A stretch of 64,000 bases of DNA from contig DUUT01000013.1 of the NCBI GenBank assembly GCA_012841405.1, positions 1 through 64,000 of the forward strand, in the 5' to 3' direction. The DNA is from Chloroflexota bacterium (GTDB taxonomy: Bacteria > Chloroflexota > Anaerolineae > UBA1429). The translations under genes and the position numbers were made by a program. Under the pieces are notes generated by a model, which searched no databases, was not told the DNA's origin, and was given only the letters and a program-made list of their open reading frames with translations. Shown here one piece after another: positions 13,263 to 19,650 of the stretch (positions are counted from its first letter, which is position 1; the number at the start of each line of letters is the position of its first letter).

Positions 13263-13291
13263 TTGACGCGACGGCCCAGCCCTGGTAATAT
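13263..13291 (+). promoter_or_regulatory. Promoter of arsR-like gene
   Basis: TTGACG-N17-TAATAT; the -10 lies inside the candidate operator. Confidence 0.75.
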
Positions 13292-13308
13292 ATTCCGTGT
13301 CTTGAATG
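13287..13308. promoter_or_regulatory. Candidate ArsR/SmtB operator 1
   Basis: AATATATTCCGTGTCTTGAATG; ATTC-N8-GAAT, 18 of 22 positions shared with 13735..13756. Confidence 0.65.
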
Positions 13309-13322
13309 GAACAGGGTGCACA

Positions 13323-13700
13323 ATGGCACTGCGGAACGAACCTTACAAGAGACAGGCCGCTTTGATTAAGGCGCTGGCGCATCCGACGCGCCTACAACTC
13401 CTGGATATCCTCGCCAGCGATGAGGCGTGCGTCTGCCACTTGACCGCGATCCTGAAGCGGCGGCAGCCCTACATCTCGCAGCAGCTCATGATCCTGCGCG
13501 AAGCGGGCTTGGTGACGGACCGCAAGGACGGTGTCATGGTCTACTACCGTCTCGCTGATCCCACGATCGCTGACGTGGTACGCGCCACCCGCGGCCTTTT
13601 GCGCACCGTCGGCGAAGCGGCGGCGTTCCCTCCCATTCCCACATCTCCCGTGGAGGGCTGCCCTTGCCCTCACTGTGGTGGGGAGGGTCCATGTACCTAG
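13323..13700 (+). CDS. ArsR/SmtB-family transcriptional regulator
   Basis: ALAHPTRLQLLDILASDEACVCHLTAIL...YISQQLMILREAGLVTDRKDGVMVYYRL winged helix; C-terminal CPCPHCGGEGPC. Confidence 0.93.
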   Translation: MALRNEPYKRQAALIKALAHPTRLQLLDILASDEACVCHLTAILKRRQPYISQQLMILREAGLVTDRKDGVMVYYRLADPTIADVVRATRGLLRTVGEAAAFPPIPTSPVEGCPCPHCGGEGPCT

Positions 13701-13705
13701 CCTGG

Positions 13706-13729
13706 AAAGGGTGTGCATCCCTTTTTTTT
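13706..13729 (+). terminator. Rho-independent terminator after arsR-like gene
   Basis: AAAGGG-tgtgcat-CCCTTT followed by continuous T tract. Confidence 0.8.
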
Positions 13730-13734
13730 GTACC

Positions 13735-13756
13735 AATATATTCGTTGTTATGAATG
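13735..13756. promoter_or_regulatory. Candidate ArsR/SmtB operator 2 upstream of permease
   Basis: AATATATTCGTTGTTATGAATG; same ATTC-N8-GAAT arrangement as operator 1. Confidence 0.65.
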
Positions 13757-13788
13757 TCCGCCCGCATCCGCGAGCCGATGGAGGCGCG

Positions 13789-15264
13789 ATGCGCATGAGC
13801 ATTCTGCAGATCATCGGTAGGCTCACCCAGGAAGGCCTGGGAAGCTTGGCCGCCTACTTGGCGGCCCACGTGTTGCTGTGCTTGCTGCCCGCCTTTTTCA
13901 TAGCCGGCGCTCTCTCCGCCCTGGTCCCTCGGGAAGCGGTAACGCGCTACCTCGGGCGCACGGCGCCCAAGACTGTTTCCTATCCCGCCGCGGCGCTCGG
14001 AGGGTTCGTCCTCGCCGTCTGTTCGTGCACCATCTTGCCCCTCTTTGCCGGCATCTACAAGAAGGGTGCCGGGCTGGGCCCAGCCATCACCTTTCTCTTC
14101 GTGGGTCCAGCCATCAGTATTTTGGCCTTCTCCTACACCGGCGTCGCCTTGGGGATGGACATCGCCGTGGCGCGCCTCGCCTTATCCATTATGTTCGGTA
14201 TCGGCATCGGGCTCATCATGGCCACCATCTTTCGCGATGACGACGTCGCTCGAGAGAGCCCCGTCGAGGCCGGCTCGGTCCCCGGCGCCCGCGTGCCGGG
14301 CAAAGTGTTCCTCTTCTTGGGGCTACTCCTCGCACTGCTTATCGTCGGCACACTCCAGGTCGATGTGTTGACCAAGGCGTATGCCCATGTCACTCTGCCG
14401 ATCCCTGGCATGGACGACCTCCAAGCGGCCTTGGATCGGCTGGTACCCTTTGACGCGGCGCGCGGCGAGGAGGGGGTCAGCGTCCAGGGGGCCTTTCTCA
14501 TCGGGCTACTCGGCCTCATCGGCGTCACCGCCTGGAAGGGACTCACCCGCATCGATGAGGGGTACAACCGCTGGACGTGGGTCTCGCTGAGTCTCATCGC
14601 CCTGACGTTGGTCGTAGCGGCCACCCGTATGGTGCCGTACGACGGACGGTTGCAGATCGAGCTCACGGGCAAGATGCTCGGTGTCATCATCGCTATGGCA
14701 GGCCTGTGGTGGTCCGCAAGCCGGCTCTTTGACCCTTACGAGATCCAAGAGTTTCTCTGGGAGACGTGGCGGTTCGTGCGGCAGATTTTTCCCCTGCTCG
14801 TCGTGGGAGTGTTTGTCGTGGGCGTCATCCACGGACTCGTTCGGCCGGAGTGGATCCAGGCGCTCGCAGGCACCAACAGCGTGATCGCCAACGCCGTCGG
14901 CGTACTCTTTGGTGTGTTCATGTATTTCCCTACGCTGGTTGAGGTTCCTATCGCCAACCTCTTTTTGAGCCTGGGGATGCACCGCGGCCCACTCCTGGCA
15001 TACCTCATAGCTGACCCAGTGCTGAGCCTGCAGAGCACCCTCGTTACCGCCAGCATCATCGGCAAGCTCAAGGCGTGGATGTACGTCGCCTGGGTGGCCG
15101 TGTTCAGTGTCGTGGCCGGGCTGCTGTACGGCGCCTGGGTCGACGGTGCCAGCATCCTGGCGCTACTCAGCTACCTTGCTGCCGCCAGTGCCCTGCTGAC
15201 CGTGTCCCTCGTAGTGCTCCGCAAGAGAGAAGCACAGCGCCCCGCTCGTCTAGCGAAGGAGTGA
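13789..15264 (+). CDS. DUF318 / ArsP-type permease
   Basis: Polytopic; CSCTILPLFAGIYKKGAGLGPAITFLFVGPAISI and FPTLVEVPIANLFLSLGMHRGPLLAYLIADPVLSLQ duplicated-half motifs; ATG at 13789 preceded by GGAGG. Confidence 0.87.
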   Translation: MRMSILQIIGRLTQEGLGSLAAYLAAHVLLCLLPAFFIAGALSALVPREAVTRYLGRTAPKTVSYPAAALGGFVLAVCSCTILPLFAGIYKKGAGLGPAITFLFVGPAISILAFSYTGVALGMDIAVARLALSIMFGIGIGLIMATIFRDDDVARESPVEAGSVPGARVPGKVFLFLGLLLALLIVGTLQVDVLTKAYAHVTLPIPGMDDLQAALDRLVPFDAARGEEGVSVQGAFLIGLLGLIGVTAWKGLTRIDEGYNRWTWVSLSLIALTLVVAATRMVPYDGRLQIELTGKMLGVIIAMAGLWWSASRLFDPYEIQEFLWETWRFVRQIFPLLVVGVFVVGVIHGLVRPEWIQALAGTNSVIANAVGVLFGVFMYFPTLVEVPIANLFLSLGMHRGPLLAYLIADPVLSLQSTLVTASIIGKLKAWMYVAWVAVFSVVAGLLYGAWVDGASILALLSYLAAASALLTVSLVVLRKREAQRPARLAKE

Positions 15265-15269
15265 ACCGG

Positions 15270-15503
15270 ATGTAGGCCCTAGGAACTGGCTGCAAAGTGC
15301 AACCGTCTCAAGCAACTCGCCCTCGCAGCGATGACCGAGGCGGGGGTCGACGCGACCATCAACAAGCTCACCGACAGCTCGGCCATCATGGCCTATCCCG
15401 TCGCCAGCATGCAGGGCCTGGTGATCGACAAGGTCGTGAAGACGTCGGGCGACCCCAGCAGAAGGGCGAGATCATCTAGCGGATCCAGGAGGCCGCGAGG
15501 TAA
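15270..15503 (+). pseudogene. Decayed small thioredoxin-fold (redox-active disulfide protein 2-like) gene
   Basis: Split across frames: ATG-TAG-ALGTGC / KCNRLKQLALAAMTEAGVDATINKLTDSSAIMAYPVASMQGLVIDKVVKTSG / QKGEII-TAG-RIQEAAR-TAA; two in-frame stops and at least two frameshifts. Confidence 0.8.
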
Positions 15504-15507
15504 CCCC

Positions 15508-15765
15508 ATGCTGACCATCAAGGTGTTCGGAACGACTCCCCCTTGTGCCAAGTGCAAACGCGCCGAACGCGAGGCGCTATTGGCCGCCGCACGCTTCCCC
15601 GGCCAGGCCGAGGTCATCAAACTCGACGCTCTCGGCCCAGAGGCCGAACGGTACGGGTTGATAGTGACGCCCACCATCGTCGTTGGCGACGAGATCGTGG
15701 CGTCGGGCAGGGTCCTAATGGCGGATCAACTCGCCGCGCTCATCGCATCCAAACTCGGAGGCTGA
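15508..15765 (+). CDS. Small thioredoxin-fold protein (PPCAKC)
   Basis: MLTIKVFGTTPPCAKCKRAE...GLIVTPTIVVGDEIVASGRV. Confidence 0.85.
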   Translation: MLTIKVFGTTPPCAKCKRAEREALLAAARFPGQAEVIKLDALGPEAERYGLIVTPTIVVGDEIVASGRVLMADQLAALIASKLGG

Positions 15766-15769
15766 CGCC

Positions 15770-16042
15770 ATGGTAACGCTGGAAGTGTTCTCTGGTGACC
15801 CACCATGCCCCGGCTGTGTAGCCATTATCGCGCTGGCCAAGCGGGTCAAAGCCAAGTACAGCGACGACGAACTGCAGCTGACGATCTACTCTGGCGAAGA
15901 GGCGATGGCCAAGTTTGACGAGTACGGCTTGTTCTGCGTGCCTGCTGCGGTGGTGAACGGCTCTATCCGCATCGAGGGGATATGCCCCAGCGAGGCCACG
16001 CTTAACAACGCTCTACGGGAGGGTGGCTTATGTCTCCGGTAA
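15770..16042 (+). CDS. Small thioredoxin-fold protein (PPCPGC)
   Basis: MVTLEVFSGDPPCPGCVAII...YGLFCVPAAVVNGSIRIEG. Confidence 0.83.
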   Translation: MVTLEVFSGDPPCPGCVAIIALAKRVKAKYSDDELQLTIYSGEEAMAKFDEYGLFCVPAAVVNGSIRIEGICPSEATLNNALREGGLCLR

Positions 16043-16293
16043 AGATCGAAGCGTTTCTGTCGATCCCCCCGTGCTCGGGGGGCGTCGCTGTGCGTCGGAT
16101 CTTGCAGCGCGCGCAGAACGAGTTCGGCGACCGCATAGAGGTGATCGTCCACACGGGCCGCGATGCCGTTTGGGATGAGAACCGCATCACCACGGCTCCG
16201 GCGCTCGTTATCGGCGACCTCGCCAGGTTCGTGGGGCTGGCACCTAGCTATCAGAGTCTCGTCGCGGCACTGCGCGAGGCAGGTCTCGAGTAG
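16030..16293 (+). CDS. Small thioredoxin-fold protein, single-Cys variant (PPCSGG)
   Basis: MSPVKIEAFLSIPPCSGGVAVRRIL...ITTAPALVIGDLARFVG; overlaps preceding ORF by 13 nt. Confidence 0.78.
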   Translation: MSPVKIEAFLSIPPCSGGVAVRRILQRAQNEFGDRIEVIVHTGRDAVWDENRITTAPALVIGDLARFVGLAPSYQSLVAALREAGLE

Positions 16294-16443: not shown

Positions 16444-18138
16444 ATGCACCGTGCGATCGCCGTCCGGGGCCGCCGCCGAGCGGGTCTGCTCGTGGCGCTG
16501 CTCGCGCTGATCATGCTCATCGGCGTGCCGGCCGTCGCAGCCGCAGACAGCCGCGTCGACGCGACTCCGTCCGCCGAGTGCGCCAAGTGCGACGCGATCC
16601 ACGCCGCCGCCAGGGCCGCTGTGCGTGAGCTGAGGGCCACCGACGACGCGGCCGCGGATTCGGCCGTGGTGTACGGCATCCTCTTCTGGTCCGAATCGTG
16701 CCCTCACTGCCACACCGTGCTCAGCGAGTCATTGCCGCCCATCCTCGAGCGATACGGCCACCAGTTGCAGATCGTGCTGGCGAATGTGTCCCAGCAGGCG
16801 CCGTATGAGGTCTGGATTGCGGCGATGGAGGAGCGCGACATCCCGACAGAGGGCCAGGTCGTCCCGATGCTCATCATCGGCGATCACGCGCTGACGGGAT
16901 CTATCCAGATCCCTGAGGAACTGCCGGGCCTCGTCGATCGCTACCTGGCGGAGGGCGGCGTCGCCCTTCCAGATGATGTGCAGGCGGCCATGGCCACAGC
17001 CGAGGCCGCGCAAACCGTCACCCCCCGCCCTCCCGTCGATTCCCAGGGCAGTGCGGCAGCACCTCCCATCCACGCCGTCTACTTTTACCAGACGGGCTGT
17101 GACGTGTGCACCCGTGCCGATCACGAGCTGCGCAACCTCACGGAAAGGTACCCGCAGGTCGTCATTGAGCGCTACGATGTGCGCGATAGCGCCGCGCTGA
17201 ACCAGTATCTCTGTGACCGCTACGGGGTACCTGCCGACAAGCATCTGACGGCGCCAGCCCTTTTCGTGGGCAACGGCTACCTGCTCGACGTCGATATCCG
17301 CGCCTCGACGATCGAGGCCTTGGTGGCGCCCCTCCTCGAGACCGGCGCTCCCGACCCCTCCGAGGGTTTTGACGCCGCACGCCACGTAGCGGAGCAGTCC
17401 ATCGTGGAGCGCTTTCAATCGTTCGGGCTGTTCACGGTGCTAGGGGCTGGCCTGCTGGATGGCATCAACCCGTGCGCCTTTGCCACCATGATCTTTTTGG
17501 TCTCGTACCTCTCGGTGCGCAGGCGCCATGGCAGAGCCCTTCTCGCCACAGGAGCGGCCTTTACCCTCGGCGTGTTCATCACCTACTTGGCCGTCGGGTT
17601 GGGGCTGGTGCGCTTTCTCGGATCCCTTCCCTTCTTGAACACTATCGCCCGCTGGCTGTACGTGGCCACGGCGCTCCTCTGTCTGGCCTTGGCCGTGGGG
17701 AGCTTTTTGGATTACCGCAAGGCCCGCGAGGGGCGTCTCGAGGACATGAGCCTCAAGCTCCCCGCGCGACTGCGGGGATGGTCGCGCCGTTTGATCCGTG
17801 AGGGCGTCAGCTCGCAGCGCTTTGTGCTCAGCGCCTTCGCGCTGGGCCTAGGCGTATCGGTGATCGAGCTCGCCTGCACGGGGCAGGTCTACCTGCCCAC
17901 CATCGTGTTTGTGCTCAACCTGCCCGAATGGCGCACCCAGGCCAGCCTGCTCTTGGTGCTGTACAACCTCATGTTCGTCCTGCCCCTCGTGGGGGTGTTC
18001 GCCCTGGTGTACTTGGGCACCACCTCCCAGCAACTCATTCGCTGGATGAACAGACACACCGCCACCGTCAAGCTCGGCACGACGGCCCTCTTCCTGCTGT
18101 TGGCAGGATGGCTGGTGCGCAGCGCCGTCGCCCTGTAG
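16444..18138 (+). CDS. Fusion protein: two thioredoxin-like domains plus CcdA/DsbD-type membrane domain
   Basis: N-terminal hydrophobic signal; ESCPHCHTV and TGCDVCTRAD active sites; C-terminal DGINPCAFATMIFLVSYL...ELACTGQVYLPTIVFVL CcdA half motifs. Confidence 0.9.
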   Translation: MHRAIAVRGRRRAGLLVALLALIMLIGVPAVAAADSRVDATPSAECAKCDAIHAAARAAVRELRATDDAAADSAVVYGILFWSESCPHCHTVLSESLPPILERYGHQLQIVLANVSQQAPYEVWIAAMEERDIPTEGQVVPMLIIGDHALTGSIQIPEELPGLVDRYLAEGGVALPDDVQAAMATAEAAQTVTPRPPVDSQGSAAAPPIHAVYFYQTGCDVCTRADHELRNLTERYPQVVIERYDVRDSAALNQYLCDRYGVPADKHLTAPALFVGNGYLLDVDIRASTIEALVAPLLETGAPDPSEGFDAARHVAEQSIVERFQSFGLFTVLGAGLLDGINPCAFATMIFLVSYLSVRRRHGRALLATGAAFTLGVFITYLAVGLGLVRFLGSLPFLNTIARWLYVATALLCLALAVGSFLDYRKAREGRLEDMSLKLPARLRGWSRRLIREGVSSQRFVLSAFALGLGVSVIELACTGQVYLPTIVFVLNLPEWRTQASLLLVLYNLMFVLPLVGVFALVYLGTTSQQLIRWMNRHTATVKLGTTALFLLLAGWLVRSAVAL

Positions 18139-18190: not shown

Positions 18191-18763
18191 ATGGCTGAAT
18201 CCACGCGCAGCTACTGCCAGATCCTGATTGGCCGGGCCATGACGGGCCTCATCGGCCTGCGCGAGATCTTTGATGCCCTCGCCGAGGAGGGTGTACAGCT
18301 CGATGCGACCAACCTCGGCCCCCGGCTCCTTGCCGAGCTGAAGCAGCACAACTATGTCCCACCGCCGGCGATAGCGACCTACGAGACGGCGTTGGTGCGT
18401 GAGTACCGCAAGTACCTGGAGGCCCGCGCTTCGGGCTCTGTCGGGCGCCGCTGGCGTGATCCCCGCAAAGAGCTCCTCTCCTGGTATCCGACCATCTTTG
18501 AGGCCAAGTGCGATGGCTGCGGCGAGTGCCTCGAGGTCTGCCCCCGCGACGTTCTGGGGTGGGACCCCGATCACGCCAGGGTGTTGGTGCTCGAGCCGTA
18601 CGAGTGCGCTCCCGGGTGCCAGCTGTGCTTCCGCGCCTGCACGCGAGGCGCCATCGTCATGCCGGCCCGCGAGAGCCTGCATCAGCGCGTCGAGACCCCG
18701 GGGCAAGGTCACGCTGCTTCTGGCTGCGCTGGCTGTCGCGGCGACTGCAAGACGTGTGGATAG
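18191..18763 (+). CDS. 4Fe-4S ferredoxin-domain protein with Cys-rich tail
   Basis: CDGCGECLEVCPRDVLGW and CAPGCQLCFRACTRGAI clusters; tail GCAGCRGDCKTCG. Confidence 0.87.
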   Translation: MAESTRSYCQILIGRAMTGLIGLREIFDALAEEGVQLDATNLGPRLLAELKQHNYVPPPAIATYETALVREYRKYLEARASGSVGRRWRDPRKELLSWYPTIFEAKCDGCGECLEVCPRDVLGWDPDHARVLVLEPYECAPGCQLCFRACTRGAIVMPARESLHQRVETPGQGHAASGCAGCRGDCKTCG

Positions 18764-18850: not shown

Positions 18851-18988
18851 CTAGGTAGTGCATGGAAAAAGGGTTACAGAGTCGTTCTGAGCGTGGCGAG
18901 AAGCCTTGTCAATGGGCGTGAAGGCCCCTCGCTGACGCTCGGGGCGACATCGTTTCTCCGTCGGGTGCGTTTTCAAGACACGGCCTAG
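18851..18988. repeat. Dispersed intergenic repeat copy A
   Basis: CTAGGTAGT...GACACGGCCTAG; about 80% identical by hand alignment to 22178..22314. Confidence 0.9.
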
Positions 18989-19650
18989 CGCGGCATGGGG
19001 CTCGTGGCCAGCACGACCTCGACCGGCAGCCCCCAGAGGGACGCCGCTGCGACGTCCACGATGGCAAAGCCGGCGCTCACGAGGAGGGTGCGGGGGTGGA
19101 TGGGGCGGCCGTTCACCCGCATAGGGTAGCGTGTGCGCGCCCAGCGGTACAACCGCACCGCGGGATGGCGCCGCCTGCCCTCGACCATCGCCGCCACCAC
19201 CAGCCGCCCCCCTGGGCGCAGCACGCGGCGCAGCTCGGCCAGCGCCAGCGGAACGCGATCAGGAGGCAGCACTTCGAGCTTTAGGATGCACAGTGCCGCA
19301 TCGGCACTGCTGTCGCGCAACGGGAGCTGGGCCGCGTCTCCGCACAGGAGGGCCACCCGCCGCCGCTGCGCCGCCCCCATCAACCGCTGTTGCGAGCGGC
19401 GCAGCACGCCCATGGACAGATCGACGCCCCACACACGGCCGGGCGCCCCCACTGCCCCGACGAGGGCCGTTAGGGCGCGCCCGGATCCGGAACCCACGTT
19501 GACGATATCCTCTCCCTCACGGGCAGACAGCATGACCAGGGCCTGACGCTCGACCGCCGCCCCCCAATCGGTCAGCCGGTCGTACCAACCGCTCATCGCA
19601 TGGTGAGCGTCCCGCGTCGCGCTGGGCTTGGGTCGTTCCTCATCCATCAT
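18985..19650 (-). CDS. Class I SAM-dependent methyltransferase
   Basis: IVNVGSGSGRALTAL, VWGVDLSMGVLRRS, LRPGGRLVVAAM. Confidence 0.87.
   Translation of the reverse strand: MMDEERPKPSATRDAHHAMSGWYDRLTDWGAAVERQALVMLSAREGEDIVNVGSGSGRALTALVGAVGAPGRVWGVDLSMGVLRRSQQRLMGAAQRRRVALLCGDAAQLPLRDSSADAALCILKLEVLPPDRVPLALAELRRVLRPGGRLVVAAMVEGRRRHPAVRLYRWARTRYPMRVNGRPIHPRTLLVSAGFAIVDVAAASLWGLPVEVVLATSPMPR

Follow-up and report, generated by a model that had tools for sequence, protein, structure and literature searches.

Two ATTC-N8-GAAT operators around arsR in a Chloroflexota bacterium: evidence for arsR autoregulation and candidate control of an ArsP_1-type permease

How might a single ArsR-type regulator control both its own gene and a permease gene that lies beyond a terminator-like hairpin? 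This question is raised by a locus of a Chloroflexota bacterium, which we analysed within a window of 64,000 nucleotides (assembly GCA_012841405.1, contig DUUT01000013.1). The features of the locus are as follows.

13263..13291, plus strand: sigma-70-type arsR promoter with 9/12 matches; the site-1 operators of relatives have the same geometry.
13287..13308, no strand assigned: operator 1; its core directly abuts the -10 box; ATKC-N8-GMAT precedes arsR in 119/158 relatives.
13323..13700, plus strand: arsR, 125 aa, ArsR/SmtB winged helix (PF01022, NF033788).
13706..13729, plus strand: terminator-like hairpin, AAAGGG-TGTGCAT-CCCTTT with T8; its last T lies 10 nt before the core of operator 2.
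13735..13756, no strand assigned: operator 2; 33 nt separate its core from the ATG of the permease; -35 and -10 boxes are not recognisable.
13789..15264, plus strand: ArsP_1/DUF318 permease, 491 aa, preceded by GGAGG (13780-13784); operator 2 presumably acts on it.
15508-15765, 15770-16042 and 16030-16293, plus strand: three small thioredoxin-like genes (PF13192).

We consider it probable that an ArsR dimer represses arsR and the permease from two ATTC-N8-GAAT operators and that a thiophilic metalloid releases both. The dimeric ArsR/SmtB-family repressor would bind two copies of this imperfect palindrome, of which operator 1 is predicted to span the -10 box and start site of the arsR promoter, a position that implies self-repression. 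Through operator 2, the same ArsR would also silence the permease gene along with the thioredoxin-like genes that follow it. The ligand of this repressor is probably soft and thiophilic, with As(III), a related trivalent arsenical or Sb(III) as the best candidates; C36-V-C38 of helix 3 and the conserved tail C113-x-C115-P-x-C118 may capture it jointly, and the ligand-bound repressor would then leave operators 1 and 2.

Operators of the locus and the arsR promoter

Operator 1, AATATATTCCGTGTCTTGAATG, occupies 13287-13308 with its ATTC-N8-GAAT core at 13292-13307, and operator 2, AATATATTCGTTGTTATGAATG, occupies 13735-13756 with its core at 13740-13755. They are identical at 18 of 22 positions. 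Coordinates, identity and cores had been reported for this pair in the first-pass annotation and were all exact. Allowing up to three mismatches, the 22-bp motif matched twice in the window, where 0.01 matches were expected, and twice in the whole genome of 4,006,803 bases, in which the reversed control pattern gave none. The genome scan proposed earlier to define the regulon was thus run over 4.0 Mb, and the regulon apparently consists of these two sites alone. The bare core occurs in eight genomic copies, and the six besides the two sites all lie within long ORFs; the core by itself is therefore unspecific, and the two longer sites are specific. A broader regulon in this genome was rejected on the same grounds, and a chance resemblance of the two operators was ruled out by their uniqueness in the genome and the comparison of relatives. 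Moreover, four further ArsR/HTH_5-like genes of this genome carry no such operator. The annotation had also named a motif that is common and unlinked to ArsR homologues as a possible objection; the 22-bp pair is unique, and in relatives the motif tracks the arsR type.

For this comparison, a first set of relatives was followed by a replication set of 102 new non-duplicate loci of the same class, in which the operator finding was repeated. The pooled upstream counts cover 158 loci that encode an ArsR with a CVCH motif and C-terminal cysteine tail and have sufficient upstream DNA; many are metagenome-assembled, and their start codons were picked by rule. ATKC-N8-GMAT was present within 120 bp of the arsR start in 119 of the 158 loci compared with 2.8 in shuffled upstream sequences, although such shuffle comparisons overstate significance since the loci share ancestry and are not independent. 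The exact ATTC-N8-GAAT was found within the same distance in 78/158 loci. Of these loci, 52 carried a site no more than 500 bp behind arsR (7.6 in shuffles), and about 8 of these downstream sites may be due to chance; sites both before and behind arsR were found in 43 of the 158. By protein type, the exact operator accompanied 39/63 CVCH+tail proteins vs 5/22 others (p 0.0025). The third half-site position changes together with its mirror position (ATTC/GAAT 92, ATGC/GCAT 26, mixed 20), as expected of the target of a symmetric dimer. As far as sequence comparison can tell, the two-operator layout around arsR is kept across the phylum Chloroflexota. There were also loci that lack it: 30/158 relatives had no ATKC-N8-GMAT-type site near arsR, and the closest relative of the first search (L003, 70% identical) had the operator at neither place. 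The arsR of this locus (L003:3971-4357) has no ATG, GTG or TTG start, possibly due to an assembly error or an unusual start. In another clade, tandem operators stand 30-31 bp apart before arsR, and a gene for a permease or ACR3 follows arsR at a short distance (L016, L070, L075, L076, L079-L081, L084, L086, L087).

The arsR promoter consists of TTGACG (13263-13268), a 17-nt spacer and TAATAT (13286-13291), with TG preceding the -10 box. That operator 1 sits on this promoter had been claimed before; the promoter is present, and its TAATAT adjoins the ATTC of the operator core. Similar results were obtained for the operators before arsR in relatives (site 1), where 84/138 have TANNNT at -9 to -5 relative to ATKC and 59/138 have a -35 box with at least 5/6 matches. 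When the 12 operator-adjacent bases were kept fixed and the rest was shuffled, the -35 signal of site 1 persisted and was reached by 0/300 shuffles. As operator 1 is placed on a normal -35/-10 promoter, autoregulation of arsR is well supported by the sequence comparison, and so is the ArsR-type nature of the operators; here the sites upstream of arsR in relatives supplied comparative evidence for the earlier proposal.

Cysteine layout of ArsR, its neighbours and the candidate ligand

ArsR belongs to the ArsR/SmtB family, since its HTH_5 domain scored above the curated cut-off (PF01022, 48.5 bits, cut-off 22) and its fold matches agree; NF033788 gave 93.5 bits (cut-off 55). The AlphaFold2 monomer is a confident winged helix (pLDDT 90.5; tail region about 84-85), and the nearest PDB folds are SqrR, HlyU, SmtB and Rv0081. 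The protein contains C36 and C38 in helix 3 (CVCH), C113, C115 and C118 in a CPCPHC tail, and C124. CVCH is invariant in the alignment of relatives (A1), and the C-terminal CxCPxC tail is found in 161/165 CVCH proteins and absent from 22/24 others. We found no description of an ArsR subfamily with CVCH and CxCPxC in the open-access literature.

Three As(III) site types of ArsR (R773, ArArsR and AfArsR) are listed in PMC11868830. The R773 type (C32-C34-C37) is likewise a winged helix with a helix-3 CVC that is autoregulated from a promoter-overlapping operator. C36 and C38 correspond to two of its three As(III) ligands, whereas the third position is T41; in addition, R773 has CVCD instead of CVCH and is not described with a CxCPxC tail (PMC11868830). 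ArArsR of Arsenicibacter rosenii (C41, C80, C82; PMC11868830) also has a CVC-type pair that lacks the third R773 cysteine and is completed elsewhere. However, its partner cysteines lie in the beta-wing, whereas here there are zero cysteines between C38 and C113, the extra ones are in the C-terminal tail and the operator sequence differs. The AfArsR type (C95, C96, C102) shares a cysteine triad near the C-terminus, but there the spacing is CC-N5-C, while the present tail reads C113-P-C115-P-H-C118 and a CVC pair exists in addition. Judged from its sequence, our ArsR has a cysteine layout that differs from each of the As(III) site types considered above.

The operator points in another direction, as ATTC-N8-GAAT is the consensus described for SqrR (PMC9774250) and occurs at both sites. 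In the sulfide-responsive repressors SqrR, BigR and YgaV the same core overlaps the promoter, and SqrR structures are the best solved neighbours of our ArsR in both sequence and fold. Together with the thioredoxins of the cluster and a BigR equivalog match of 61.5 bits, this would suit a sulfide or persulfide sensor of the SqrR/BigR/YgaV kind. We regard such a sensor as quite improbable nonetheless, because the helix-2 and helix-5 cysteine pair is missing: the helix-2 cysteine of SqrR aligns to D28, and there is no cysteine near helix 5. Moreover, the BigR match falls far short of the model's cut-off (155), the cysteines conserved without exception correspond to a metalloid site, and both cysteine chemistry and gene neighbours, among them ACR3 in relatives, differ.

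The permease is a member of ArsP_1 (DUF318), with 221.2 bits against PF03773 (cut-off 32.3), and is the only copy in this genome. PF13192 matches all three thioredoxin-like genes, the third below cut-off, and matches of these genes to the MTH895/ArsE-like model are below cut-off as well. The genes at 15508..16293 likely belong to the permease transcription unit. In relatives, an ArsP_1-type permease lies behind the CVCH+tail ArsR in 85/161 loci, and thioredoxin-like genes are near arsR in many; the most frequent neighbours are ArsP_1 permeases and thioredoxins of the ArsE-like kind. ACR3 arsenite pump genes follow in 27/161 loci, and two of them were checked against TIGR00832 (464 and 412 bits, cut-off 283). 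A search for ACR3 in the genome studied here found none, so that the link to arsenic runs via relatives. The ACR3 linkage and the ArsP_1 and ArsE-like neighbours point to As(III)/Sb(III) or to an organoarsenical in trivalent form rather than to sulfide or other metals, and on these sequence-based grounds arsenic appears to be the likeliest ligand signal of ArsR. Given the lack of ACR3 and the sole ArsP_1 gene, the permease would be the exporter under ArsR.

CVC with extra cysteines is also found in Cd/Pb sensors of the ArsR/SmtB family. ArsR might thus respond to a different soft metal (Cu, Zn, Cd or Hg) or to an oxidant of thiols, with export of that ion by the permease, whose best curated match is the SO_0444 Cu/Zn exporter model. 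This match, however, reaches 83 bits with a cut-off of 300, the SaoE model is also below cut-off, and arsenite efflux genes of the ACR3 type recur beside the same ArsR type, which makes another metal or an oxidant an improbable signal.

Several further observations concern the genes downstream of the permease. Between the permease and the first intact thioredoxin-like gene, 15265-15507 holds a remnant of such a gene (MTH895/ArsE-type) with a TAG straight after the ATG and a frame shift past the CxxC region, which represents a pseudogene or an assembly error. The third thioredoxin-like protein (16030-16293) has CSGG at the CxxC position and has lost the second active-site cysteine. The gene at 16444-18138 fuses thioredoxin-like CxxC motifs to a CcdA/ArsG-like membrane part and is followed by a ferredoxin-like protein gene at 18191-18763; relatives of both proteins (about 53% and 64% identical, respectively) are encoded behind an operator-bearing CVCH arsR in locus L006. 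On the minus strand, 18985-19650 encodes a class I methyltransferase that is probably not an arsenite methyltransferase, as the ArsM models gave 60 and 53 bits, far under their cut-offs. Besides, a GcvH-like lipoyl-domain gene lies behind a CVCH-type arsR in about 17 relatives (L190, L176, L155, L173, L186 and others), in some directly behind the operator; a dithiol-carrying protein beside an arsenical sensor was unexpected.

Operator 2, the terminator-like hairpin and permease transcription

Between arsR and operator 2 lies AAAGGG-TGTGCAT-CCCTTTTTTTT (13706-13729), a hairpin with an AAAGGG/CCCTTT stem, a 7-nt loop and T8. It had been called a clear terminator. The hairpin exists, but the word clear is too strong since its energy is modest (-7.9 kcal/mol, z -0.61) and a terminator pattern scanner run on the window did not list it. 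An Rfam search of the spacer for an RNA element gave zero matches. The assignment of the permease as a target of the same regulator gained support, as dozens of relatives have a further operator in the interval from arsR to the following gene. The gene next to this site 2 was permease-like in 37 of 59 cases; in several others thioredoxin-like genes came next, and in two it was ACR3.

The proposal of the first-pass annotation that the permease operon is transcribed separately was not supported. No sigma-70-type promoter was recognisable at operator 2 in the window, nor as a rule at site 2 of relatives. A -10 box was found at 4/59 site-2 vs 84/138 site-1 operators (Fisher p 1.7e-13) and a -35 box with at least 5/6 matches at 1/59 vs 59/138. 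With the 12 operator-adjacent bases fixed and the rest shuffled, site 2 showed no -35 signal above the shuffles, and all searches for a second sigma-70 promoter there with controls preserving the operator arm came up empty. By eye, we also considered a -35 box placed in the T-run and paired with a -10 box within operator 2, an extended -10 and a sigma-54-like GG-N10-GC; for each, hexamers or spacings misfit. As the site-2 operators lack promoter boxes, separate transcription of the permease operon is unproven.

What precedes site 2 instead is a T-run; in 39/60 loci it ends at a distance of 8-14 nt from the operator. The distance was exactly 10 nt in 15 loci including the window, which is the mode, and 11 nt in 11. 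In the replication set alone, a T-run was found before site 2 in 11/16 compared with 1.05 in shuffled sequences and 1/43 at site 1. A genome-wide search for the combined T-run and operator pattern was too noisy for use alone. Locus L039 carries three operators: one at the arsR promoter, one behind a terminator and lacking a promoter (+47), and one with a good promoter 80 bp on (+127). It represents a natural construct for separating operator roles.

From the sequence, operator 2 may mark a -35-less promoter, or it may be an operator linked to read-through. In the latter case it would govern read-through from arsR, not initiation, by a roadblock or conditional attenuation, with induced arsR transcripts leaking past the weak terminator. 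The missing promoter boxes, the T-run at its preferred distance, its recurrence in the replication set and the promoterless, terminator-linked operator of L039 with a separate promoter-borne operator 80 bp on all speak for this. There are also precedents, as ArsR is able to act as a roadblock (PMC10310618) and a terminator-like attenuator lies inside the ars1 operon of Bacillus CDB3 (PMC4562236). There too a terminator-like hairpin lies within an ArsR-controlled cluster, but the passages on it describe no second operator behind it. Neither a terminator-linked ArsR operator nor roadblock plus attenuation at a fixed spacing was found in the open-access literature. On the other side, although hairpins precede the T-run in excess of the control, a stable one is not present at every T-run (z below -1 in 18/39, control 21%), the distance from the site-2 operator to ATG (28-36 nt in many) is like that of site 1, as in a promoter-operator cassette, and the terminator would still reduce permease expression when induced. 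We judge control of read-through to be rather unlikely and slightly favour a weak -35-less promoter that overlaps operator 2 and drives the permease. Such a promoter would use TAYATT supplied by the operator arm itself.

Operator 2 could also be an auxiliary site that boosts arsR repression by DNA looping and has no direct role for the permease. Two operators per locus are common, also in tandem 30-31 bp apart (L016, L070, L075 and others). However, the distance between operators varies with inserted genes (about 450 to 800 bp), site 2 is near the start of the next gene, and no oligomer larger than the dimer is expected in the ArsR/SmtB family. Looping is accordingly very improbable, and direct repression of arsR and the permease from the two operators is the reading we prefer.

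Implications for the ArsR family

Our analysis provides a palindromic operator motif (ATKC-N8-GMAT) together with probable target genes for an ArsR subfamily that is widespread in Chloroflexota, and its ligand thereby becomes accessible to experiment. A further question is why site-2 operators keep an almost constant distance of 10-11 nt from the T-tract before them and lack promoter boxes. It is conceivable, though doubtful, that the Chloroflexota ArsR with CVCH and CxCPxC controls terminator read-through and not initiation, via a promoterless operator fixed 10-11 nt behind the arsR U-tract. If read-through were controlled in this way, termination would be the step at which a one-component metalloid sensor intervenes. 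Moreover, the operator core is shared with sulfide sensors despite different sensing cysteines, which suggests that the family evolves its DNA specificity independently of its ligand specificity.
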